Part shown: in pieces, positions 1 to 11,982 of the stretch
Position numbering within the stretch: the stretch's first letter is position 1
Layout: every line of letters begins with the position of its first letter
Source of the DNA: Deltaproteobacteria bacterium
GTDB lineage: Bacteria > Myxococcota_A > UBA796 > UBA9615
Direction of reading: 5' to 3'
NCBI GenBank assembly: GCA_023954745.1
Contig: JAGSHC010000037.1
Location: 1 to 35,426 of the forward strand
Length of the DNA: 35,426 nt
The notes under the pieces: generated by a model
Databases searched by the model: none
What the model was told of the DNA's origin: nothing
The model's input: only the letters and a program-made list of their open reading frames with translations
Translations under genes and position numbers: made by a program

Positions 1-2184
1 CATCGCCCCATGAAGAAGGACCCACCACGGTCCTTCCGCGCGATTCTCGCCCTCGACGGCGCGCGCCGGGTACGGCTCGACGCGCTCCCGGACGCGAGCG
101 TGGCAGACCTAGCCGCCCGCTTTCTCGGAGTCCTCGACCTGTCACCGGAGCTCCAGAAGCTCGTGGTGTCCCGGGCGGCGGGCAACCCGTTCTTCTGCGA
201 GGAGATGGTGTACGCCCTGGTGGAGTCGAAGGTCTTGCTCACGGACGGCGGGCTCGCCCGATTCGCCCCGGGCAAGGACGCCTCGTCGGTGGATCTGCCC
301 GGAACGCTGCAGGGCGTGGTCACCTCGCGCCTCGATCGACTCCCTCCCGCGGAGCAGCTCACCCTCAAGGTCGCCTCGGTGCTCGGTCGCACGTTCACGC
401 TCGATACGCTCATGGCCATGCATCCGGTGGAGCACCCCCGGGACGAGCTGATCGCGCAGCTGGATCACCTCGCCGAGCTGGACTTGTGCCCCCAGGAGCG
501 GGACGAGGACGGTCTGCGCAGCCACGGCTTCAAGCACGCCATCGTTCAGGAGGCCTGTTACGAGCTGCTGGTGTTGAGCAAGCGACGCGGTCTTCACGCC
601 GCGGCCGCGGTGCACTACGAGCGCAGCGACGACGCGGATGAGAAGAGCGCCGCGCGCCTCGCTCACCACTGGCAGAACGCCGGTGAGCCCCTGCGCGCCT
701 TGGAGCACCTCGAGCGGGCGGGCTTCCACGCGCTCGACAACGGCTCCGACCGAGACGCCCTCGGGACGCTCGAGGCGGCGCAAGACATCGTCGAACACCT
801 CTCGAATACCCAGCTCATGGAGGTGGGGCCCGTGCGGCAGGCGGCGGTGCTCACGGGGATCGGCACGGCCCTCCAGGGGGTCGGCCGTCCCGACGACTCC
901 GCAGAGCTCCTCCGCGCCTCGATGGCAGCCCTGGGCAAGAAGCTTCCCACGAGCAGTCTGGGCTGGACGGCCCGACTGCTCTCCGAGGGTGCGCGCCAGC
1001 TCGTCTACCGTCTCATGCCTCGCTTCCTCCGATGGCGCGCGCGACCCCACAAGCACCAGGCCCTCCGCGCCGCCAGCCGCGCCGCGAGCTGGTACGCCAA
1101 CGCGTCCTACTTCCGGGTGGAGGCGCTGCCGTGGCTCGCCGCGGGGCTGCTCTCGGCCAACCTCGCCGAGAACGCCGGCAGCCCGGAGATCGCGGGGACG
1201 GCGTACGTCAACCTCGCCAACATCTTCGGCACCCTGCACCTACGAAGACTGGAGGGCGTCTATCTGCGCCTCGCCAGGCTCTCCCCGGAGCGACGCGTGG
1301 AGATCATCGCGCACTCGGCCACGGCCGTGGTCGACGTCCTCCACTGTGACTGGGACGCCGCGCGCTCCACCATCGAGGAGGGCACATCCAAGGCCCGCGC
1401 CGCCGGCGACTGGTGGGCCCTGGGGAACGGCCTGACGATCAAGGCACTGGTCGCCTACCTCACTCAGCCCGTGGGGGAATGTCTCCCTACTTTTGGTGAG
1501 GTCGCCCGGCTGATGAGAGATCGCGACCACCCCGCCCAGGAGGCCTACGGACTCGTCTTCTCCGTGCCGGCGTTGCTCGCCCTCGACCGGGTCGGCGAAG
1601 CGGCCGCGCAGCTGGACGAAGGGGCCCTTCGGCTGGAGAGGTTCGACTACTTCGGACGCCTCGCCTGGTACTCGGCGCGCGCCACGGTGTCGTGGCGGCA
1701 GGGCGACCTGAAGGTGGCGGTGAATGCCGCCGTCGAGGCAATGACGATGTTCAAGGCGAAGCCCTTGATGCTCTTCACCTACGTGGGCCCCTTTCACTCC
1801 ATCGCTGAGGTCCTCCTGGCGGCCGCCCACGCGGGGGACCCCATTGGGGGCATGTCCGTCGAGGAGATCCGGGGCCACGCGCGCACCGCCGTGAAGAACT
1901 GGGGGCAGGGCACCGCGCTCTTCTGGTACTTCCGCCCTCGGGCGTTCCTCGCCCAGGGCGCCCTCGCCATGCTCGATGGCAAGCCGGCCAAGGCCCGAAC
2001 CGCTTGGGCCAAGGGAATCGCGGCGGCGCAGCAATACTCGATGCCCTGGGACGAGGCGCGGGTCCACGTGGAGGCGGCGCGGTTCGCGGCCGAAGGCTCG
2101 GCCGAGCGATCACACCACGAAGCCGCTGCCCGCGCGATCCTCGAGCCGATGGGCGCCGAGGGGACCCTCGAGCTGCTCCCGTGA
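1..2184 (+). CDS. AAA-type predicted ATPase with C-terminal TPR-like region (5' end outside window)
   Basis: The frame is open to the first base and the readable protein begins in the middle of a domain, so the gene starts upstream; the ATG at 10 is probably internal. Residues about 20-75 (from the ATG) match the later half of the STAND/AAA_16 predicted-ATPase fold found in PknK, LuxR/MalT and adenylate-cyclase-linked regulators: a leucine-rich 'DALPDASVADLAARFLG' segment and a 'RAAGNPFFCEEMVYAL' motif (compare the usual GNPFFxEE). Walker A and B must lie upstream. The rest is alpha-helical with Ala/Leu-rich repeats of TPR or MalT type. A signalling role, perhaps as the C-terminal part of a Ser/Thr kinase, is inferred from the family. 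The stop overlaps the GTG of the next gene, so the two are translationally coupled. Confidence 0.8.
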   Translation, partial: HRPMKKDPPRSFRAILALDGARRVRLDALPDASVADLAARFLGVLDLSPELQKLVVSRAAGNPFFCEEMVYALVESKVLLTDGGLARFAPGKDASSVDLPGTLQGVVTSRLDRLPPAEQLTLKVASVLGRTFTLDTLMAMHPVEHPRDELIAQLDHLAELDLCPQERDEDGLRSHGFKHAIVQEACYELLVLSKRRGLHAAAAVHYERSDDADEKSAARLAHHWQNAGEPLRALEHLERAGFHALDNGSDRDALGTLEAAQDIVEHLSNTQLMEVGPVRQAAVLTGIGTALQGVGRPDDSAELLRASMAALGKKLPTSSLGWTARLLSEGARQLVYRLMPRFLRWRARPHKHQALRAASRAASWYANASYFRVEALPWLAAGLLSANLAENAGSPEIAGTAYVNLANIFGTLHLRRLEGVYLRLARLSPERRVEIIAHSATAVVDVLHCDWDAARSTIEEGTSKARAAGDWWALGNGLTIKALVAYLTQPVGECLPTFGEVARLMRDRDHPAQEAYGLVFSVPALLALDRVGEAAAQLDEGALRLERFDYFGRLAWYSARATVSWRQGDLKVAVNAAVEAMTMFKAKPLMLFTYVGPFHSIAEVLLAAAHAGDPIGGMSVEEIRGHARTAVKNWGQGTALFWYFRPRAFLAQGALAMLDGKPAKARTAWAKGIAAAQQYSMPWDEARVHVEAARFAAEGSAERSHHEAAARAILEPMGAEGTLELLP

Positions 2185-3827
2185 GGGAGATCCCCACTCT
2201 GGAGGAGCCCACCGACCTGTTCACACTCGGGACGGAGGCCTTCGCGGAGTACAAGCGAGAGCTCGCCAACTGCGGCATCGAGCTTCCCGCGTCGGTGACG
2301 TTGGAGCGCGTGGACGGAATCGTCTTCTACTACTCGCGCGACAACGGAAAGATCCACGTCGCGGTGCCTCCCGCCGACGACGACTCCACCGTGGCAACGT
2401 ACCGCTTCCTCTGGTCGTCCCTCCTCAGCCTGGACGCCGAGACCCTCGACAGCTTCCTGCCGATGTTCGTGCGCCGCGTCGTCGCCCACGAGCTGGGCCA
2501 CGCCCTGCGAGACGCCTACGGCCACTTCGGAGACAACCTGTGGGAGGAGGAGCAGGTGGCCAACGAGCTCGCCGTCGCCCTCCAGAACCGACGCCTCTCC
2601 CCCGAGCAGCGCGACGCCTTCAAGGCCTCCGTCGACCGAGCCATGTCCGCGCTGAAGGGCAAGGTCGGGTCGATCAAGGACGTGCGGATGAGCTACCAGT
2701 CCCAACTGGAGGTCATGTACCAGACCGAGCAGGTGGGGGACTCCACGCGCATGGCCATCGAAGCGTTGGGCCAGGCCTTCGACTTGGAGCAGAGCGACAT
2801 CCTGCGCAGCCAGGTCGCCACGGGCGCCGCGACCACGGTGACAGACGAGAACGAGGTCATCGAGCGGTTCAACACCGGCGGCATGGGCAACCTGCTGCAC
2901 TACCTCTTCTTCCAGCTGGGCTGGCTTCAGATCGACCTGGCCGCGCAACACACCAGCTACACCCAGGAGTTTGCGGCGAATCGCCTGGGGCTCTCCCCCC
3001 CGAGCCTGAGGACTCCTGCGCGGGCGAAGGTGGCGACGAAGAGCCAGGTGCGCGCGCTCCACGCGGCCTCCCGGGCGTGCCGGGCCCTCTCCAACGAGAC
3101 CGCAGCGCGATGGTTCTACAAGAGGTACCGCGCGTACCTCGTCGAGCTGCTCCGCGGGGCCGAGGCGCGCCCCGAGGTCTCGACCACCACGTTCCGCAAG
3201 GACCCAGCCCACCTCCTGGAGACCTGGGAGGACTCGAGTCGCGATCGGCTCGACCTCCTGCGCGCCATCGCCCCCGCCGACATCCGGCCACTCTTCCCCG
3301 GCCGCATGGCCGAGACGGCTCCCGATGTGGACGAGGTGGAGGTGGACCTGCCCCACGAAACGGACCGTGCCGTCTGGCGCCGGGCGACCCTCGACAGCCC
3401 CGACCCCGCGGCGACGGCGACGCTGCAGAGGCTCGCCCTGTTGGACCGGACCCAGCAATTCCGCGCGCTCCCGGCTCGAGCGATGCTCGACGTGGCGAAG
3501 CATCTCTTCGAAGTGCGCCTGAACGACGGGGAGACCCTCTTCTGGCGTGGGGAGCAGAACTCCGATGTGTTCATCGTCGCCGAGGGAACCCTGGAGTGGA
3601 GCATTGGGGACGAGCAGGACAGCCCCCGGGGGCTGCGCGCTGTGGGGGAGGTCGTCGGCGAGTTCGCATTCCTGACGGGAGAGCCCCGCTCCGCCACGGT
3701 CCGCGCGAAGGGGCCCGCGCGCTGCTTCGTCATCAAGGCCGTCGATCTGCGCATCCAGTCCGGGCAACACCCGAGCATCATGGAGCGCATCGCCGCGGGC
3801 CTGGCGAGGCGGCTGCGAGACAAGTAG
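2181..3827 (+). CDS. HExxH metallopeptidase-like protein fused to a cyclic-nucleotide-binding domain
   Basis: This 548-residue protein starts at a GTG that overlaps the previous stop (GTGA). A longer in-frame start exists but would lie inside the upstream gene. Residues 103-107 read HELGH, followed by 'EEEQVANELA' at about 122-131. The E-x2-A-N spacing resembles the third zinc ligand of gluzincins such as ImmA/IrrE peptidases. The middle section is helical and unrecognised. From about 440 to the end is a cNMP-binding (CAP_ED) beta-roll containing 'GEFAFLTGEPRSATVRA', which retains the Gly-Glu and Pro-Arg-x-Ala of the phosphate-binding cassette. There is no signal peptide or membrane segment, so it is probably cytoplasmic. 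A nucleotide-gated protease is an inference; the peptidase could be inactive. Coupling to the AAA regulator suggests one signalling unit. Confidence 0.8.
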   Translation: MREIPTLEEPTDLFTLGTEAFAEYKRELANCGIELPASVTLERVDGIVFYYSRDNGKIHVAVPPADDDSTVATYRFLWSSLLSLDAETLDSFLPMFVRRVVAHELGHALRDAYGHFGDNLWEEEQVANELAVALQNRRLSPEQRDAFKASVDRAMSALKGKVGSIKDVRMSYQSQLEVMYQTEQVGDSTRMAIEALGQAFDLEQSDILRSQVATGAATTVTDENEVIERFNTGGMGNLLHYLFFQLGWLQIDLAAQHTSYTQEFAANRLGLSPPSLRTPARAKVATKSQVRALHAASRACRALSNETAARWFYKRYRAYLVELLRGAEARPEVSTTTFRKDPAHLLETWEDSSRDRLDLLRAIAPADIRPLFPGRMAETAPDVDEVEVDLPHETDRAVWRRATLDSPDPAATATLQRLALLDRTQQFRALPARAMLDVAKHLFEVRLNDGETLFWRGEQNSDVFIVAEGTLEWSIGDEQDSPRGLRAVGEVVGEFAFLTGEPRSATVRAKGPARCFVIKAVDLRIQSGQHPSIMERIAAGLARRLRDK

Positions 3828-3848
3828 TGCGTCGCAGGGGGGATCCGT

Positions 3849-3878
3849 TTGACGCTGCTGTCGGACCGCCCCTAGATT
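3849..3878 (+). promoter_or_regulatory. Sigma70-like promoter, apparently leaderless
   Basis: TTGACG (3849-3854), an 18-nt spacer and TAGATT (3873-3878) stand just before the TylF-like gene. Only 9 nt separate the -10 box from the ATG at 3888, so transcription would begin within a few bases of the start codon. No Shine-Dalgarno sequence is present. Read by eye, not tested. Confidence 0.55.
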
Positions 3879-3887
3879 CCGCGCCAT

Positions 3888-4640
3888 ATGGTCAGCAAGC
3901 TCATCATCGACGGCGTCCAGGGGGGGCTCAGCCTCCTGGGTTACCAGCTCACCCGCGCGGCGAAGGACCCCACCTACGTCCCCAGCCCGCCGAACACGTA
4001 CCCGACCTACTCGCCCAGCGAGGAGGCGTCGTTTCGGTCTCTGCACGAGCGGTTCAACCACCGGACCCTCTGCGCTCGGGACCGGGCCTACATCCTTCAG
4101 CAGGTCGCCAAGCAGGCCATGCACGTCCCCGGCGACTTCGCGGAGGCTGGGGTGTTTCGGGGGGGAACGTCGTGGTTCCTCGCCCACCTGCTGCGCGAAG
4201 CGGGGGACTCCCGCACGCTGCACGCCCTGGACTCCTTCGAGGGAATGCCCGCGGACACCGAGAAGGCCCGCGACGGCCACGATCCCGGGGACTTCGGAGA
4301 CACCTCCCTGGAGTCCGTGCAGGAGTTCCTGAGCGAGTTCGAGAACATCACGTTCCACCCGGGGTTCATCCCCGGGACGCTGGCACCCCTGGAGGACCTG
4401 AGCTTCGCTCTCGTCCACGTGGACGTGGACATCCACGACGCAGTGCGAGACTGCTGCGCGTTCTTCTACCCCCGGCTGGCGCCGGGCGGTGTGATGCTCT
4501 TCGACGACTACGGCTTCGAGGTCTACAAGAACGCCGCGCGCAAGGCTGCGGACGACTACTTCGCCGACAAGCCCGAGTCGCTGGTCGTGCTGCGCACCGG
4601 CCAGGCCATGGTCACGAAGCTGCCTCCGTCGACCGCCTAG
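3888..4640 (+). CDS. TylF/MycF-family macrocin-type O-methyltransferase
   Basis: The 250-residue protein matches the TylF family of SAM- and metal-dependent sugar O-methyltransferases. The SAM-binding motif I region is 'GDFAEAGVFRGGTSWFLA', followed by 'LHALDSFEGMP', typical of this family. 'HVDVDIHDAVRDCCAFFYPRL' with the later 'FDDYGF' supplies the acidic metal-binding residues. Length is normal. It probably methylates a hydroxyl on a sugar of the polysaccharide made by the downstream cluster; the exact substrate cannot be read. Transcribed alone from its own promoter, 60 bp after the upstream gene; the ATG is preferred because the promoter abuts it and there is no ribosome-binding site. 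Confidence 0.85.
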   Translation: MVSKLIIDGVQGGLSLLGYQLTRAAKDPTYVPSPPNTYPTYSPSEEASFRSLHERFNHRTLCARDRAYILQQVAKQAMHVPGDFAEAGVFRGGTSWFLAHLLREAGDSRTLHALDSFEGMPADTEKARDGHDPGDFGDTSLESVQEFLSEFENITFHPGFIPGTLAPLEDLSFALVHVDVDIHDAVRDCCAFFYPRLAPGGVMLFDDYGFEVYKNAARKAADDYFADKPESLVVLRTGQAMVTKLPPSTA

Positions 4641-4686
4641 GGAGGGGCAATCCGGCTGGTCCCCTCGCCAGCGTCCGACGTACGAT

Positions 4687-4733
4687 TGGCATTCCATTGG
4701 CCGGGGTGAGAATCCCGCCTTAGCTTCCATTGG
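4687..4733 (+). promoter_or_regulatory. Candidate promoter with direct repeat upstream of the FG-GAP protein
   Basis: The 120-bp gap before 4761 has TGGCATTCCATTGGC at 4687-4701, with the GG-N10-GC spacing of a sigma54 promoter but an imperfect -12 element. An overlapping sigma70 reading is TTGGCA, 16 nt, GAGAAT. The 9-mer TTCCATTGG occurs at 4692-4700 and again at 4725-4733, exactly 33 bp (about three helical turns) apart, which could be a regulator site. All three readings are tentative. Confidence 0.3.
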
Positions 4734-4760
4734 TACGCGAAACGCGACGCTGAGGATGTA

Positions 4761-7700
4761 ATGACCAAGACCTCTCCCGCGCTCAGGCGGTCCTTGCTCC
4801 TCCTGGGCGCCAGCCTCCTCCTCTCCCCGCCGGCCTACGGCGAATGGACCGGCGTGCTCGGCGGGCCTGGGGCCCAGAACCGTGCCGGCGGAACCGCCCT
4901 GATCACGAGCGCAGCCGAGACCAGCCCGGGAATCGCCTGGACCATCGCCCGTGCGCCCGAGCCGCTGAGCTCGGCGGATCTGCAGGACCTCGATGGCGAC
5001 GGGGTCGCCGAGGTTCTGTTCGTCGCATCGGGTCGCGTGTGGGCGCTCAACCCTCAGCAGGCCACGCCCGCTTGGGTGTCTCCTGCCCAGGCCATCGACG
5101 CGATCGTCGGCTTTGGTGAACTCGACGGCGACACGTCCAGCCCCGAGCTCGTCGCTTCCTCCAGTGGAACTGGCGGGGGATTCCTCCTCATGGACCCGGC
5201 CCAGGGCGGAGTCGTCGGCTCCCTCGGCCCGTTCCCCACCCTGTCGGGCGCGTCCGCGCGGGAGACCGTCCTCGCGGACCTCAATGGGGATGGCATCGAC
5301 GAGATCGTGCATCCGCCGGGTCGCCTCGCGGTCAACTCCCTCTGGGTCAGCACGGTCACGAACGGGGTCAGTAGCCCGGGCTTCCTCGAGATGCCGCTGG
5401 GGGGGTACGCCAACACGACCCCCGCCCTCACTGGAGACTTCCTCGGCACCGGCGACCCCGTCATCGTGGTCGACCAGGGCCCCGCCCTGACCCTGTACCC
5501 CACATGCGAGCCCAGCGCGCCGGACGCGGTCTGCGACGATGGAGCGGGAACCGTCTGTCTCTGCTCTCCCCTTGGACTCAGCGGAATCCACGCGACCTAC
5601 TCGTTCGGGCCCCGCTGGGTCCTCGACACCGACGGCGATGGGCATGACGAGCTTCTCCAGCTCGCCAACTCCGCCCCCTACATCAAGGCCCTCGGCGCCC
5701 TCGACTTCGTCGACGGCTTCGCCACGATCCCCGCCCAGCCGGACGCCACGCGTCAGTGGTATCGGCGCTACACGGCCACCGCGCCCACCCCACGCCTGGA
5801 GGCCCTGTCCGAAGGTCCCCTCGACCTGGACGGCGACGGCGACCTGGAGCTGGTCGTGTCGTTCTACAACAACGACGGCGGCGACACGGACGCCACCGGG
5901 CTCGTCCCCAACGACGACGGCATCGACCACCCCAGCGCCGTGTCCATCGGCGTCTTCGACGTCGCCACGGGCGACCTCGAGGCCTCCATCCTCGACGCCT
6001 TCGCCTGGGGCGTCGTCGACCTCGATGGCGATGGCGATGTCGAGCTGGTGACCTCGCCTACGTCGGGCTTTGGCTTCGGCACGGGGCTCAGCGGCAGCGA
6101 GCTCGACTGTTCCGGTCCCACCTGCGTATTCACCGAGGTGTGGACGACCCCCTCGGGCTCGATGCACCCGCTGCTCAGCGCCTTCGACGGCAACGCTCTC
6201 CCCGCCCCGCGTGTCTTCACGGTGGACACGGACACCGATGGCTTCGGCGAGTTGTTGAGCTACAACGGCACGACCCTCGAGGCCCTGACGGCCGACGGCG
6301 CTGGGGGCGTGACCGTCGCGGCGAGCCGACTGCTTCTGCCCGACGAGATTCTCCTCGACGACGACGCAGTCACCAACTCTGCGGTCGTCACGTCCGCCAC
6401 CAACCTCACTGTGCTGAACCACGGGCTCGGGACCACCGGGAGCCCAATCCGCATTCCCTCCCGCGGGTGGAGGAGATTCCAGGCCGCGTCCTTCGACGGT
6501 GGAGTGCGCGAGGCGCCCGTCTTCTCCGGCAATGTGTTCATGAGCAACGAGGCCCCCTCCAGCGTGAATCAGGGGGACCACGAGCTGTACCCGGGGTTCG
6601 GGCTCGCCGAGGACCTCGATGGCGATGGCGCAGCCGAGCTTCTGACCTACGCCAACCCCGGCAGCCTCGAGCTCGACGACGCGTCCTTCGAGATTCGCCT
6701 GGATCGCTGGGACACCTCGACCGAAGCGTTCGTGGAGGTCTGGGAGCTCGACTCCGAGGACTACGCGCAGCTCACTGGCTACGGGGTGGTCTCGGAGCTG
6801 CACGTCGCCAGCGGCGACTTCGACGGGCAAGGCTCCCGGGACATCGTGATCGAGCTGGGCGCCGGAGGTGTCTTCATCTACGCGGTGATCGACGGGGACA
6901 CCGGAGAGCTCGACGCGACCCTGACGCCGACCCAGCGGGTCGCCACGTCCTCGGGCCTCCTGGTCGCGGACCTCGTCAACGACGACGGAGACCCCTTCCC
7001 CGACGGCATCGACGACGTACTCATCGACGGCGCACAGCTCATGAGCCTGCACACCATCGCGAGCGGCGAACTCTGGAGCGTGGACGTCGGTGGGTTCATT
7101 CACGGCGTCGGCGCCTACGCCGACACGGACGGGGACGGGGACGCCGAGCTGGTCGCCACACTGTCGGTGACGACGGGGAACGTCATCGAGGTGATCGACG
7201 ACCTCGACCTGTCCACCCCCTCCACCACCTGGGGCCCCGACGCGCTGCCCCTGCCCACCGACCAGCTCCAAGTCATGGCCATCGCCGATGTCGATGCCGT
7301 CGCTGGGCTCGACGTCCTCTACATCAGCGGTGACGGCGGAGTGCACGCGTACTCGGGGGCCACCGGGGCTGTCGTGCCCGGGCTGCCCGTGTACGTGGCT
7401 GATGGCGCCCTCACGACCACTCCGCCCGCCTCCGCGGCGAACCTCTTGTCCCTGATGGCGCTCGACGTCGATGACGACGGCTACGAGGAGGCCATCGTGG
7501 GCTCGTCGGACGGCATCGTCTACGCGGTGAACGTCGCCACGGACGACCCCGACGCTCCGGGGCTCGAGTGGTCCTTCGCCATGGCAGCAGCCGTGCGCGC
7601 CCTGGCCGCCGCCGACACCGACGGCGACGGGTACGACGAGATCCTGGTCTCCACGAACGACGGCAGCGGCTCGGTGATCGATGGGATCGGTGTCTCCCTG

Positions 7701-8267
7701 CAGATCACCTCTCCCGGCGGAGCCGACTGCATTCCCTCCACCGAGTTCGATGTCACGGGCACCTCCGTCGGCGTGGCGCAGGTGGACGTCTTCGTCGCCG
7801 GAAGCAGCATCTCGGGGGACGTCGACGCCTCCGCCGGCTCCTGGACCGCGCCCGCTGAGGCGCCCTCCACAGGCAGCTTCGGCCTCGTCGCCCGCGGCAA
7901 GGACGAGAACGGCGTCATCGTCGCCTACGACTCCGAGCTCATCTCCGTCGGCGAGGATGCTGACGAGGATGGCTGGTACTCGTGTGCCGACTGCGACGAC
8001 AGCGACGCCGAGCGCAACCCGGGCGCCGAGGACATCTGTGAGGACGGAATCGACCAGGACTGCGATGGCGCGGACGCGACGTGTGGTGACGACGACGACT
8101 CGGGAGACGATGACGACGACATCACCAGCGACGACGACGACTCCAGCGATGGCGACGGCGGGGGATGTGCCGGCTGCGACGGGTGTGACACCGGCAACGG
8201 TGCAGGAGGGCCCAGCGTGCTGCTGCTGTTCGGCGTCGTCCTTGCGCTTCGCCGGCGTAGGGTCTAG
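4761..8267 (+). CDS. Secreted FG-GAP/VCBS repeat protein with MopE-like motif and MYXO-CTERM tail
   Basis: The 1168-residue protein has a signal peptide (basic start, leucine-rich core, likely cleavage near 'PPAYG' at about residue 27) and a GAGG ribosome-binding site 5 nt before the ATG. About ten calcium-loop repeats of the FG-GAP/VCBS kind follow, for example DLDGDGVAEVLF, DLNGDGIDEIV, DLDGDGDLELVV and DTDGDGYDEILVS, which suggest a beta-propeller. An Ig-like stretch occupies roughly 980-1060. Residues about 1066-1112 are a MopE-like putative metal-binding motif (DEDGW..CADCDDSD..NPGAEDICEDGIDQDCDG). A run of Asp/Ser leads to a Gly/Cys-rich segment, a short hydrophobic helix and RRRR, the layout of the MYXO-CTERM sorting signal. 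Probably a surface-anchored or released protein. Its direct role in polysaccharide assembly is unknown; it is linked only by position. Confidence 0.88.
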   Translation: MTKTSPALRRSLLLLGASLLLSPPAYGEWTGVLGGPGAQNRAGGTALITSAAETSPGIAWTIARAPEPLSSADLQDLDGDGVAEVLFVASGRVWALNPQQATPAWVSPAQAIDAIVGFGELDGDTSSPELVASSSGTGGGFLLMDPAQGGVVGSLGPFPTLSGASARETVLADLNGDGIDEIVHPPGRLAVNSLWVSTVTNGVSSPGFLEMPLGGYANTTPALTGDFLGTGDPVIVVDQGPALTLYPTCEPSAPDAVCDDGAGTVCLCSPLGLSGIHATYSFGPRWVLDTDGDGHDELLQLANSAPYIKALGALDFVDGFATIPAQPDATRQWYRRYTATAPTPRLEALSEGPLDLDGDGDLELVVSFYNNDGGDTDATGLVPNDDGIDHPSAVSIGVFDVATGDLEASILDAFAWGVVDLDGDGDVELVTSPTSGFGFGTGLSGSELDCSGPTCVFTEVWTTPSGSMHPLLSAFDGNALPAPRVFTVDTDTDGFGELLSYNGTTLEALTADGAGGVTVAASRLLLPDEILLDDDAVTNSAVVTSATNLTVLNHGLGTTGSPIRIPSRGWRRFQAASFDGGVREAPVFSGNVFMSNEAPSSVNQGDHELYPGFGLAEDLDGDGAAELLTYANPGSLELDDASFEIRLDRWDTSTEAFVEVWELDSEDYAQLTGYGVVSELHVASGDFDGQGSRDIVIELGAGGVFIYAVIDGDTGELDATLTPTQRVATSSGLLVADLVNDDGDPFPDGIDDVLIDGAQLMSLHTIASGELWSVDVGGFIHGVGAYADTDGDGDAELVATLSVTTGNVIEVIDDLDLSTPSTTWGPDALPLPTDQLQVMAIADVDAVAGLDVLYISGDGGVHAYSGATGAVVPGLPVYVADGALTTTPPASAANLLSLMALDVDDDGYEEAIVGSSDGIVYAVNVATDDPDAPGLEWSFAMAAAVRALAAADTDGDGYDEILVSTNDGSGSVIDGIGVSLQITSPGGADCIPSTEFDVTGTSVGVAQVDVFVAGSSISGDVDASAGSWTAPAEAPSTGSFGLVARGKDENGVIVAYDSELISVGEDADEDGWYSCADCDDSDAERNPGAEDICEDGIDQDCDGADATCGDDDDSGDDDDDITSDDDDSSDGDGGGCAGCDGCDTGNGAGGPSVLLLFGVVLALRRRRV

Positions 8268-8299
8268 TAAACCGCGCGTACGACTGAGGAGTGCGACCT

Positions 8300-10573
8300 G
8301 TGAGTAAGGTCTTGAGAGCGGCGGACTCCGCCGACCCACGCATCGAGCTGCTGCATCCGCCGAGCGGACCGCAGGGTGATGGCTTGCCGTCGCTGCACGA
8401 GTTCATCGAGCCCGTGCGCCGATTCTGGTGGGTCATCGTCCTCATCGTCATCGCGTCGGTGACGCTCAGCGTGGTCCTGACACGCTTCATGCCCAAGGAG
8501 TACTCCGCCGAGGCCACGGTCATCATCGGCACCGAGGCCCCTCGATTCCTCGGCGACGAAGAGAAGGACGTGCAGCTCCAGCGAGGTCCCCGCACCCGCT
8601 TCGAGTACACCCAGTACCTGGAGACCCAGCTCCACGTCATCGTCAGCAAGCCCGTCCTCCGACGCGTGGTCAACCGGCTTCAGCTCGCGACCGACGAGAC
8701 CTTCCTGGGACTCGTCGACTCCACGGACGCTCCGCCCCTGACCGCCCAGGAGAAGGAAGAGAAGGCCGTCGACACCCTGAGCAACCGCACGCTGGTCGTG
8801 CCGGTCCAGGACACGCAGATGGTGGGGGTCGTGGCCTGGGACTACGACGCCGAGCAGGCGGCGCTCATCGCCAACTCGGTCGTCACCGAGTACATCGCGT
8901 ACACGAAGCTCCAGCAGCAGGAGTCGGTCTCTGGAGCTCTCGAGTGGTTGCGCGAGCAAGCCAACCAGCTCAAGGACGAAGTGCTCGTCGCAGAGCGCGC
9001 CCTCTACACCTTCCGTAGCACCCACGCGCTCCTCAACACGCCCCTCGCCGAGCGGCGGACGACCGAGGCCCAACGGGTGGAGGACCTCGGAGCTCGCCTC
9101 ACCGAGGCCGAGGTTCTGCGCATCAAGCTCTCCTCGAAGTGGGAGGAGACGGAGCAGCTCCTCGAGCAGGGCAAGGTGCAGTCCGCCGCCCTCATCGCGA
9201 CGGACCCCACCGCGGGGCGGCTCAAGGCGCAGCTCATCGAGCTCGAGCAGAAGGAAGCGGAGCTCGCAGCCTCCCTCGGCCCGAACCACCACAAGGTCAA
9301 GACGCTCCGGGCCGAGCTCGCCTACACCCGCGAGCGCTTCGACGCGGAGGTCGACAAGCTCGTCGACGGCCTCCGAGCGGAGCTCCTGACGGCGCAGCGC
9401 TCCGAGGAGAAGCTGCGGGACCGGCTCGGCTCCCAGACGCGCAACGCGGTGGAAGTCAGCAAGCTCGAGACCGAGTACGACTCCCTTCAGCGCGACATGG
9501 AGAACTCCCGCCGGCTGTTCGAGGTGGTGTCGGAGCGCCTCAAGACGATGGAGCTCGCCTCCCTCCTCGACACCTCCAACATCACGACTCACGAGATCGC
9601 TCAGCCCAACGGCGACCCCGTGCGGCCGAGGCTGGTGGTCAACGTCGTTCTCTCCCTCCTCCTGGGCCTCATGCTCGGGCTCGGCGCGGCCTTCGGCCTC
9701 GACCAGCTCAACCAGTCCGTGCGAAACGAGCGCGAGCTCGAGGAGCGACTCGGCCTCAAGGTGATCGGCGCGATCCCCCTGGTGCGTGCGAAGGACCGGG
9801 AGCGCGCCGACAAGCTGGCGAAGAAGGGCGAGCGAGCAGGTGAAGCCGACCGCTACGTCGCCCGATACCCGCGCTCGCAGATCGCGGAGGCCTTCCGTGG
9901 CCTGCGCACGAACCTCCTCTTCATGCGCCCGCGGCCGGACTTCAAGTCGCTGCTGATCACGTCCGCCGGTGTACGGGAAGGAAAGACGACGGTCTCCACG
10001 AACCTCGCGCTCTCTCTCGCCTCGGCCGGGCGTCGGGTCTGCGTCATCGACACCGACCTCCGGCGTCCCCGCGTGCACAAGGTCTTCGACCTCGACAACG
10101 ACGGCGGCCTCACGATGGTGATGATCGGGGAGCAGACGCTGGACGACGCGATGGTCACGGTCGAGCACAACCTCGACATCCTCCGTTGCGGACCCACGCC
10201 GCCCAACCCCTCGGAGCAGCTGGCTTCGTCCGCCTTCGCCGCGGTCGTCACCGAGCTGCGACGACGGTACGACATGCTGATCTTCGACTCGCCTCCCGCT
10301 GCCTTGCTCAGCGACGCCTCGATGCTGAGCCAGCGCGCCGACGGGATCCTGCTCGTCGTGCGCGCCGAGTCGACGCACCGCGGGATGCTCAAGCGTGCAG
10401 TGCGGAACCTCGAGGCCGTCAACGCTGAGATGCTCGGGGTCGTCGTCAACGGAACGGCGCGGATGAGCAAGGGCGGCTACGGCTACGGCTACGGCTACGG
10501 CTACGGCTACGGCTACGGCTACGGACGCTCCGAGTACACCGACGACGACGCCGAGGAGCCCGTCGACGCGTAG
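8300..10573 (+). CDS. wzc: Wzc-type polysaccharide co-polymerase / BY-kinase
   Basis: The protein has a Wzz domain fused to a bacterial tyrosine kinase. The GTG at 8300 is chosen because GAGGAG (8286-8291) lies 8 nt upstream; an earlier GTG at 8291 would overlap that site. After a cytoplasmic N-terminus come one membrane helix (about 40-61), a long periplasmic coiled-coil region, a second membrane helix (about 445-465) and the kinase. The kinase shows Walker A 'GVREGKTT' (Lys about 562), Walker A' 'VIDTDLRRP' and Walker B 'MLIFDSPP'. The C-terminal tail has eight Gly-Tyr units plus one further Tyr, the expected autophosphorylation cluster. By family it controls chain length and export together with the Wza-like protein. 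It is followed after 2 nt by a Wzy-like gene. No Wzb phosphatase is present. Confidence 0.93.
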   Translation: MSKVLRAADSADPRIELLHPPSGPQGDGLPSLHEFIEPVRRFWWVIVLIVIASVTLSVVLTRFMPKEYSAEATVIIGTEAPRFLGDEEKDVQLQRGPRTRFEYTQYLETQLHVIVSKPVLRRVVNRLQLATDETFLGLVDSTDAPPLTAQEKEEKAVDTLSNRTLVVPVQDTQMVGVVAWDYDAEQAALIANSVVTEYIAYTKLQQQESVSGALEWLREQANQLKDEVLVAERALYTFRSTHALLNTPLAERRTTEAQRVEDLGARLTEAEVLRIKLSSKWEETEQLLEQGKVQSAALIATDPTAGRLKAQLIELEQKEAELAASLGPNHHKVKTLRAELAYTRERFDAEVDKLVDGLRAELLTAQRSEEKLRDRLGSQTRNAVEVSKLETEYDSLQRDMENSRRLFEVVSERLKTMELASLLDTSNITTHEIAQPNGDPVRPRLVVNVVLSLLLGLMLGLGAAFGLDQLNQSVRNERELEERLGLKVIGAIPLVRAKDRERADKLAKKGERAGEADRYVARYPRSQIAEAFRGLRTNLLFMRPRPDFKSLLITSAGVREGKTTVSTNLALSLASAGRRVCVIDTDLRRPRVHKVFDLDNDGGLTMVMIGEQTLDDAMVTVEHNLDILRCGPTPPNPSEQLASSAFAAVVTELRRRYDMLIFDSPPAALLSDASMLSQRADGILLVVRAESTHRGMLKRAVRNLEAVNAEMLGVVVNGTARMSKGGYGYGYGYGYGYGYGYGRSEYTDDDAEEPVDA
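10475..10522 (+). repeat. GGCTAC hexamer, 8 perfect tandem copies
   Basis: Eight uninterrupted copies of GGCTAC lie in frame near the end of wzc and encode (Gly-Tyr)x8. Gain or loss of a unit keeps the reading frame but changes the number of phosphorylatable tyrosines. Confidence 0.97.
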
Positions 10574-10575
10574 CC

Positions 10576-11982
10576 ATGTTTCTCGACCGCTCCAAGATTC
10601 GGCCCGTTCTCATCCTGGGCGTGCTGCTCGTTCTTCTGGCCGGCGGCGTCGTCCTGGCCGAGGGTCTGCTCCAGACCGTCCTCTTCACGATCCTCGCCAG
10701 CAGCGGAGTGGTCCTCTCGGCTGCCCTCTGGCCAGAAGTCCTCGTGATGGCCTACCTCTTCGCGGGTCGGTACGAGTACGACGCGCGCCTGGCGCCGTTC
10801 GACCTCCCTCTCAGCGTCAACCAGATGATGCTGGTAGGCCTCGTCGGCCTCGCCCTGGTGAACGCCTCACACCTCGGTCGCGTTCTGCGCTCGTGGACGA
10901 TGGTCACGCTCCTGCTCTTCGGCCTGGTCATGGTCCTGGGACTCGGCTGGAGCTACGGACTCATCTACGGCCTGTACAAGGTCACCCACACCTGGCTCGT
11001 CGTCATCCCTGGGGTGGTCATCGCCGCGACCGTGGTCTTGCGGCGACGCTCGCTCACTCCCCTCATCGCAGCGACCTTCTTGGTTGGGTTCGCTCTGAAC
11101 GGCGCGGCGCTGCTGACCTTCGAGCAGTCCATGGGGGGCAACCGTCTCACCGGTCTGGGCAGCGGTCCCATCGTGTTCGCGCGCACTGTGGGTCTCTCGC
11201 TTCTGATTGGTCTGTTGACCCTGGTCTGGCTCGTCCAACGAGGCGCTCCACGCTGGCGGGACCGCGGCGCCATCCTCTTGTGCGTCGCCGCGGTGGGGCT
11301 CCTGATCCCCGGGTTCGTGCTCGCGCAGTCCCGAGGCCCTGCCTTGGGGCTCGCCGCGGCGCTGGCCACGGTCCTCGTGCTGTCTCTCTACGGGAACTGG
11401 AGGGTGATGATCGCGGGAGTCGTCTTTGGGTCAGGGGTGTTGTGGGCGGCGAACCTCGTCATCTCCACGATGCTGGAGCACACGCGCTTCGACCTCACCA
11501 AGGAGTCCAACCAGGCGGGGCTCGACGGCCGGGTCAACCACCTCACGGACACCTGGGCCGTCATCGTGGACAACCCGCTGATCGGTGCGGGGACAGGAGG
11601 GTGGCCGGTGTCGGTGTACGGCATCGACCATCGGATGTACCCGCACAACTTCTTCGCGGAGATCGCCTCGGAGAACGGCGTCCCCATGGCCCTGCTCATC
11701 GGGGTCCTCTTCGCCGTCATCCTGGGCCGTGGGTTCGTGGCGTGGCTGAAGGCGCGGGAGCCCAAGTCACGGTTCATCCTGCTCGGCTCCCTGGCGACGT
11801 TCGCGTTCTACGCCGTCAACATCTCCGCGACCGGAGACACCCCGGACAACCGGCTCGTCTGGCTCATCCTGGCGAGCGTCGAGTTGAGCGCGCGCTTCGC
11901 CCGCGAGCAGGTCACTTCTCAGGTGGTCGTGGCCCGCGTACCCGCTCGAAACGGACCTTGGTCCACGTCACCAGCGCGCTGA
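10576..11982 (+). CDS. O-antigen ligase / Wzy polymerase-like membrane protein
   Basis: The 468-residue protein has about ten to twelve hydrophobic segments. In the C-terminal half is the large periplasmic loop of the O-antigen ligase-related family (PF04932 type): 'GRVNHLTDTWAVIVDNP', then 'LIGAGTGGW' and 'YPHNFFAEIASENG', where the His-Asn pair is typical. By family it joins polysaccharide repeat units, or a polymer to an acceptor, at the periplasmic face. It begins 2 nt after the wzc stop, so the pair is an operon. Its last 71 nt overlap the convergent flippase gene. It is one of two such proteins here, so which is the polymerase and which the ligase is open. Confidence 0.82.
   Translation: MFLDRSKIRPVLILGVLLVLLAGGVVLAEGLLQTVLFTILASSGVVLSAALWPEVLVMAYLFAGRYEYDARLAPFDLPLSVNQMMLVGLVGLALVNASHLGRVLRSWTMVTLLLFGLVMVLGLGWSYGLIYGLYKVTHTWLVVIPGVVIAATVVLRRRSLTPLIAATFLVGFALNGAALLTFEQSMGGNRLTGLGSGPIVFARTVGLSLLIGLLTLVWLVQRGAPRWRDRGAILLCVAAVGLLIPGFVLAQSRGPALGLAAALATVLVLSLYGNWRVMIAGVVFGSGVLWAANLVISTMLEHTRFDLTKESNQAGLDGRVNHLTDTWAVIVDNPLIGAGTGGWPVSVYGIDHRMYPHNFFAEIASENGVPMALLIGVLFAVILGRGFVAWLKAREPKSRFILLGSLATFAFYAVNISATGDTPDNRLVWLILASVELSARFAREQVTSQVVVARVPARNGPWSTSPAR

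Follow-up and report, generated by a model that had tools for sequence, protein, structure and literature searches.

A HExxH metallopeptidase-like protein with a cyclic-nucleotide-binding domain, encoded beside a predicted adenylyl cyclase and an NHLP-clan peptide

Proteins that unite an enzyme and a cyclic-nucleotide-binding (CNB) domain in one chain are known from mycobacteria, where the acetyltransferase Pat (PDB 4ava) is of this type, and from cyanobacteria, where HetC represents a CNB-coupled C39 cysteine peptidase (PMC10986499). Here we analyze a 35,426-nucleotide stretch of DNA, the whole of which we refer to as the window (contig JAGSHC010000037.1 of assembly GCA_023954745.1 from a deltaproteobacterium of the lineage UBA9615), that encodes at positions 2181 to 3827 a fusion of an HExxH metallopeptidase-like domain with a C-terminal CNB domain. 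Pat and HetC differ from this protein in their enzyme class and in the N-terminal placement of their CNB domains, and HetC, with its reversed domain order, is furthermore an ABC exporter that binds ppGpp.

A cyclase and a CNB-domain effector are co-encoded in Pycsar systems as well; the cyclase of our locus, however, is of a different type, and neither a TIR or membrane effector nor a defence setting was seen. PADLOC returned matches confined to the CNB part of the fusion protein and none for the part of the upstream gene present in the window, so that the locus does not qualify as Pycsar, and a function as a defence system was rejected on these grounds. Terpene enzymes are likewise accompanied by CNB domains in the operons of family 2B encapsulins (PMC8346489), which encode a cyclic-nucleotide-binding protein together with terpene cyclases or polyprenyl transferases. 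There, the CNB domain resides in a capsid protein devoid of an HExxH motif, whereas no encapsulin was seen in the window cluster, and the window protein has no HK97-type shell domain.

With regard to the peptide encoded at our locus, a described member of its family is Os1348 from Pseudomonas Os17, a small protein tied to antibiotic activity whose gene is accompanied by those for an HEXXH protein, a GNAT acetyltransferase and a SagB-type dehydrogenase (PMC7726476). The OS3 cluster of Os17 and the pfl/pos NHLP clusters resemble our locus in that an Os1348-family small protein is encoded beside an HExxH protein and other tailoring genes, but the HExxH proteins stem from different families, and the described Os1348-Os1351 genes of Os17 comprise no cyclase, CNB domain or isoprenoid-synthase-like gene. 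In the open-access literature that we searched, we found neither a description of the cluster reported here nor of its combination of parts.

The fusion protein and its HExxH domain

The GTG start codon of the open reading frame (ORF) for the fusion protein overlaps the TGA stop codon of the preceding gene (2182-2184) as GTGA. All its features are located on the + strand:

2181-3827, +: HExxH metallopeptidase-like/CNB fusion protein, 548 amino acids (aa), GTG start
2208-2640, +: minigluzincin/M78-like domain, approximately residues 10-153
2487-2501, +: HELGH, residues 103-107; H103, E104 and H107 invariant in 13 homologues
2547-2564, +: EEQVAN, residues 123-128; E123, E124, Q125, A127 and N128 invariant in 13 homologues
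2982-3440, +: helical region in the middle of the protein; FYKRYR invariant at residues 312-317
3441-3824, +: CNB domain, residues 421-548; PF00027 match at 445-524
3645-3704, +: phosphate-binding cassette GEVVGEFAFLTGEPRSATVR, residues 489-508; G493, E494, R503 and A505 invariant

The original prediction had read from this ORF an HELGH motif with a downstream E-x2-A-N, a C-terminal cyclic-nucleotide-binding domain with a preserved phosphate cassette, and this very order of domains, and our analysis bears it out on each of these points. All 13 homologues share H103, E104, H107 and E124 as well as the four cassette residues, and the PF00027 score of the CNB domain, whose Gly-Glu and Arg-x-Ala elements are kept, amounts to 49 bits (6.2e-13) at a cut-off of 27.5 bits. 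Since the same residues are invariant throughout the homologues, the HExxH motif and the CNB cassette are far from chance occurrences; the 12 other proteins of the set share 28-38% identity with the window protein. E124 is likely to serve as the third ligand of the putative metal. The middle helical region matches no known family.

The 13 homologues comprise three proteins from the window's lineage and ten full-length proteins from Anaerolineae. In the window's class, 3 of 71 genomes carry the fusion protein, namely the window genome (G000), a congener (G001; 38% identity) and a member of the same family (G005; 35%). When contigs were scanned, a single-protein query gave 0 matches and a three-row alignment query gave 3. 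A profile search led first to Anaerolineales HSG24 and then to full-length proteins in 10 of 396 Anaerolineae genomes, including HSG24, and to one fragment. Four remoter relatives of the HExxH domain exist in the window's phylum. Two of them (G637 and G744) end in a CNB domain as well but possess a different middle region, while in the other two the HExxH domain is positioned behind a polyprenyl-synthetase domain (PF00348; 7.7e-10 in G740, loci L038/L051; 1.1e-4, which is under the cut-off, in G774, locus L050). Phages, plasmids and viral contigs that we searched contained no relative of the fusion protein, and a phage or plasmid origin was rejected on this basis. As a separate observation, a 217-aa protein with the motifs HECGH...EEQAA (G395; L055:6195-6845) is weakly related to the HExxH domain and is flanked by DUF444/YhbH-like and SpoVR-like genes, both of which were assigned by eye.

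The Pfam model for M78 peptidases (PF06114) matches residues 98-134 with 11.8 bits, under its 22-bit cut-off, and gives any match at all in just 2 of the 13 homologues. Hence, the assignment of the HExxH domain as a peptidase rests on conservation, on profile-profile comparison and on a fold search with a model of modest confidence. Comparing profiles for the region from HExxH to E-x-x-A-N yielded 86.7% for M78, 0.8% for TIGR04267 and 0.2-0.8% for controls. The comparison with TIGR04267 matters because iron oxygenases can occur among the HEXXH proteins that adjoin NHLP peptides (PMC12636437). No homologue of the fusion protein matched TIGR04267 in NCBIfam, and an identity as an alpha-ketoglutarate HEXXH oxygenase was rejected given that the profile relation does not exceed control level. 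The window genome does possess a separate TIGR04267 gene (C42:21453-21953; L110), the sequence of which is unrelated to that of the fusion protein.

AlphaFold models were built from four sequences, for the full-length protein and, separately, for its N-terminal part. The full-length model is weak, with a predicted local distance difference test (pLDDT) value of 52, and its fold search recovers the CNB domain alone. The N-terminal model reaches a mean pLDDT of 58.5, with values mostly between 58 and 89 over the first 150 residues, and a predicted template modelling score (pTM) of 0.60. It is predicted to consist of a helix, three strands, a further helix, the HExxH helix and a helix carrying the Glu residue; in the predicted models, HExxH lies within one helix, and E123/E124 open the next. 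When this model was searched against 350,542 chains, minigluzincins (abylysin, selecase, jannalysin) took ranks 1-8 and PprI/IrrE ranks 9-10. The single matches to this predicted structure are weak; the ranked list as a whole is not.

The HExxH domain thus looks like a minigluzincin/M78 metallopeptidase. In addition to providing the best fold-search matches, minigluzincins and the M78/IrrE-ImmA proteins share with its predicted structure a short sheet, an HExxH helix and a Glu residue in the helix that follows, and M78 peptidases have the E-x-x-A-N motif in common with it. The window protein departs from these families by its score below the Pfam M78 cut-off, its long helical region and its C-terminal CNB domain, and it possesses neither the helix-turn-helix nor the DNA-damage setting of M78/IrrE-ImmA proteins.

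Neighboring cyclase, peptide and tailoring genes

The gene directly upstream of the fusion protein is cut by the contig edge:

1-2184, +: C-terminal half (rest of AAA/STAND, TPR) of a soluble adenylyl cyclase (sAC)-like twin class III cyclase

Translational coupling to a STAND/AAA regulator had been proposed for the fusion gene. The overlapping upstream gene and its AAA part were recovered, but the supposed regulator actually makes up the C-terminal half of a protein with twin class III cyclase, AAA and TPR parts. Its N-terminal half is found in frame on a second contig of the window genome (C353, positions 2614-5034), and the last 348 bases of this contig are 99.1% identical to window positions 1-348. 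Judged from this overlap, the two contigs very likely join, although an identity below 100% leaves the connection short of proof. In G001 and G005, the corresponding proteins measure about 1,400 aa and combine a pair of class III cyclase domains with AAA_16 and a long TPR-type region at the C-terminus.

Human sAC (4clf) is the best PDB match of the cyclase half from the window genome (1.4e-40). Residues aligned with D47, D99, K334, N412 and R416 of sAC, which we take to be catalytic, are kept. With its two cyclase domains, complete active site residues and AAA/TPR parts, the protein can, as far as sequence allows, be assigned to the sAC-like class III cyclases. It resembles human ADCY10 in the succession of two class III domains, with equivalents of these five residues, and AAA and TPR parts; it differs from ADCY10 in being bacterial, in being encoded in an operon with a candidate effector, and, in the window's lineage, in the replacement of the lysine equivalent to K95. 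Among 11 of the 13 clusters covered by our tally, such a cyclase is adjacent in eight (G000, G001, G005, G390, G363, G412, G198, G237), which represent two lineages. In a phylogenetic tree, the cluster cyclases of the window's lineage group together, and those of Anaerolineae group apart, although not in a clean separation. The presence of an sAC-like cyclase with apparently intact catalytic residues directly upstream of the fusion gene, overlapping or adjacent, strengthens the idea of a protease gated by a cyclic nucleotide.

Profile scans of the neighboring genes revealed a common order in the window's lineage: isoprenoid-synthase-like protein, NHLP-clan peptide, S-adenosylmethionine (SAM) methyltransferase, twin cyclase, HExxH-CNB protein. 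The SAM methyltransferase belongs to the cluster in this lineage, and the individual coordinates are:

Window genome, C353: isoprenoid-synthase-like 3-617; peptide 645-875; halogenase 883-1749; methyltransferase 1768-2583; cyclase 2614-5034
Window genome, continued in the window: rest of the cyclase 1-2184; HExxH-CNB 2181-3827
G001, L012, in the order of the window's lineage: 3093-4019, 4042-4326, 4332-5126, 5190-9401, 9409-11082
G005, L013: peptide 492-743, then 750-1529, 1621-5844, 5822-7528

No isoprenoid-synthase-like gene was found in the short stretch of G005 before the contig end. The Anaerolineae set consists of twin cyclase, isoprenoid-synthase-like protein, HExxH-CNB protein, NHLP-clan peptide and a further protein, D.

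The peptide ORFs (67-112 aa) match NF038399, "Os1348 family NHLP clan", with 41.5-73.3 bits (cut-off 40) in nine of nine tested cases, among them the peptides of the distant G637 and G744 loci. As the Os1348/NHLP clan is a clan of precursors for ribosomally synthesized and post-translationally modified peptides (RiPPs), the cluster peptides score as members of a precursor family. Of the 13 clusters, 11 contain such a peptide, as do the fragmentary cluster of G355 and two distant HExxH-CNB loci; in the clusters without one (G345, G094), the contig ends shortly past the HExxH gene. By comparison, 55 unrelated loci (203 kb) from the same and related genomes contained 0 such peptides. The C-terminus is conserved, as in AAAFGENQAAV. 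Separately, the NHLP-clan peptides at L052:4455-4694 and L053:6431-6712, beside distant HExxH-CNB proteins, end in KRRAAC, and their C-terminal Cys is missing from the other peptides.

The isoprenoid-synthase-like protein resembles class I enzymes, with acidic motifs DDWLDD and DDALDVLSD in G001 and, in most Anaerolineae proteins, DNLMD and NDLFDWxxD with variants. Protein D from Anaerolineae (650-700 aa) is related to it in its N-terminal part (hhalign 98.2%), and its C-terminus gives weak matches to drimenol synthase (0.13) and squalene-hopene cyclase (0.64). For neither the isoprenoid-synthase-like proteins nor protein D did sequence comparison with Pfam and the PDB yield a significant match, the best values being 0.49 for a prenyltransferase and 0.13 for drimenol synthase. 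Between the peptide and methyltransferase genes of C353 (L057), positions 883-1749 encode a WelO5-type carrier-protein-independent halogenase (PF22814; 1.5e-57), and G001 possesses an FAD-halogenase-like gene (9e-15, below cut-off); L012:28-1257 is the 3' part of this longer gene and not a complete halogenase gene.

Downstream of the fusion gene, the window continues with:

3888-4640, +: TylF-type methyltransferase, 60 bases downstream of the HExxH-CNB gene
4761-8267: FG-GAP/MopE-motif surface protein with a Cys-rich, hydrophobic, RRRR tail like MYXO-CTERM sorting signals
8291-10573: exopolysaccharide protein of the Wzz/BY-kinase type; its tail is tyrosine-rich, (GY)n

Membership of the TylF-type gene in the cluster is doubtful because the ORFs examined on the 3' side of the fusion gene's homologues in G001 and G005 differ from it.

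A possible messenger-controlled maturation step and its alternatives

Judged from the sequences, the locus suggests protein or peptide processing that is switched by a second messenger. The setting with an NHLP-clan peptide, isoprenoid-synthase-like and tailoring genes in two lineages argues for a role in peptide maturation rather than for a free-standing signalling switch. As the leading one among the explanations considered, we tentatively propose, while stopping short of calling it probable, that the fusion protein is a CNB-controlled metalloprotease of the gluzincin type that is fed with the nucleotide of the neighboring cyclase and acts in the maturation of the co-encoded peptide. In this scheme, the C-terminal CNB domain would hold the protease domain of the same chain in check until a signal reaches the STAND/TPR sensor part of the cyclase. 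The triggered cyclase would then make a cyclic purine nucleotide, most likely cAMP, the binding of which to the CNB domain would release the HExxH domain. The freed protease might cleave the Os1348/NHLP-clan peptide or a partner attached to this peptide. Such a cleavage would form one step of a RiPP-like pathway, which would draw on isoprenoid-synthase-like proteins as well and, within the window's lineage, on a SAM methyltransferase; a halogenase or halogenase-like gene would join it in two of the genomes.

Several observations weigh against this proposal. No family model scores the HExxH domain as a peptidase above cut-off, the fold-search E-values are 0.05-0.5, and the models are weak (mean pLDDT 58.5, and 52 at full length). 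The purine choice of the cyclase is drawn solely from its similarity to sAC, an adjacent cyclase is absent in three clusters (G345, G406, G094), and the cluster cyclases of the two lineages do not form a single clade. Furthermore, a variable core is not obvious in the peptides, and they lack a common double-glycine site, which renders both the RiPP reading and the substrate uncertain.

The frequent company of an isoprenoid-synthase-like protein, the polyprenyl-synthetase fusions of related HExxH domains in G740 and G774, and the family 2B encapsulins, in which CNB domains meet terpene cyclases and polyprenyl transferases (PMC8346489), would fit a protein that regulates or scaffolds an isoprenoid-synthase-like partner, with a metal site that is structural or serves a non-peptide substrate and a CNB domain that tunes this partner; a role of this kind has been proposed for the CNB-bearing family 2B encapsulins with terpene cyclase cargo. 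We regard this as unlikely, though worth keeping in mind, as Glu104, both His residues and the downstream Glu are all invariant, peptidases are the best profile and fold relatives, and no encapsulin fold is present, the CNB part alone matching encapsulin with 22.7 bits against a cut-off of 400. A CNB-gated iron/alpha-ketoglutarate peptide oxygenase, akin to PflC, PosC and ChlH of other NHLP clusters, appears quite improbable: the cluster peptide does belong to the same Os1348/NHLP clan as in those clusters, and the HEXXH proteins of the Os17 and pfl/pos clusters fall into the TIGR04267/IPR026337 group, which includes some oxygenases (PMC7726476, PMC12636437), but the profile comparison outlined above places the HExxH domain with M78 and leaves TIGR04267 at control level.

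The CNB domain might, alternatively, sense the general cAMP pool or another ligand, with the cyclase being present merely for shared regulation. The genomes of the three clusters without an adjacent cyclase hold many twin cyclases elsewhere, the lack of monophyly among the cluster cyclases points the same way, and the CNB domain of HetC binds ppGpp (PMC10986499). Yet the adjacency in eight clusters over two lineages, the overlapping reading frames in the window and the invariant cassette residues for a cyclic ribose-phosphate make this explanation rather improbable. A degenerate or accidental combination of domains without joint function, for which one might invoke the small number of carriers in the window's class, is highly implausible, since architecture, neighbors and invariant catalytic-type residues are common to two distant lineages.

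With still greater reserve than for the function of the protein itself, we suggest that the locus constitutes an undescribed system for peptide maturation. Here, an sAC-type cyclase from the same operon would switch a metalloprotease via a CNB domain of the protease chain and would thereby place the processing of a co-encoded NHLP-clan peptide by isoprenoid-synthase-like and further tailoring enzymes under direct second-messenger control. To our knowledge, no RiPP-like pathway is known to be controlled by a second messenger. If our proposal holds, a protease that answers to a second messenger by way of a CNB domain within its own chain would represent a rare signalling device. The pairing of isoprenoid-synthase-like proteins with NHLP-clan peptides hints at an unknown chemistry. 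As the maker of the ligand, the putative sensor-protease and its likely substrate are encoded together, the targets of bacterial sAC-like cyclases should become testable with purified parts.

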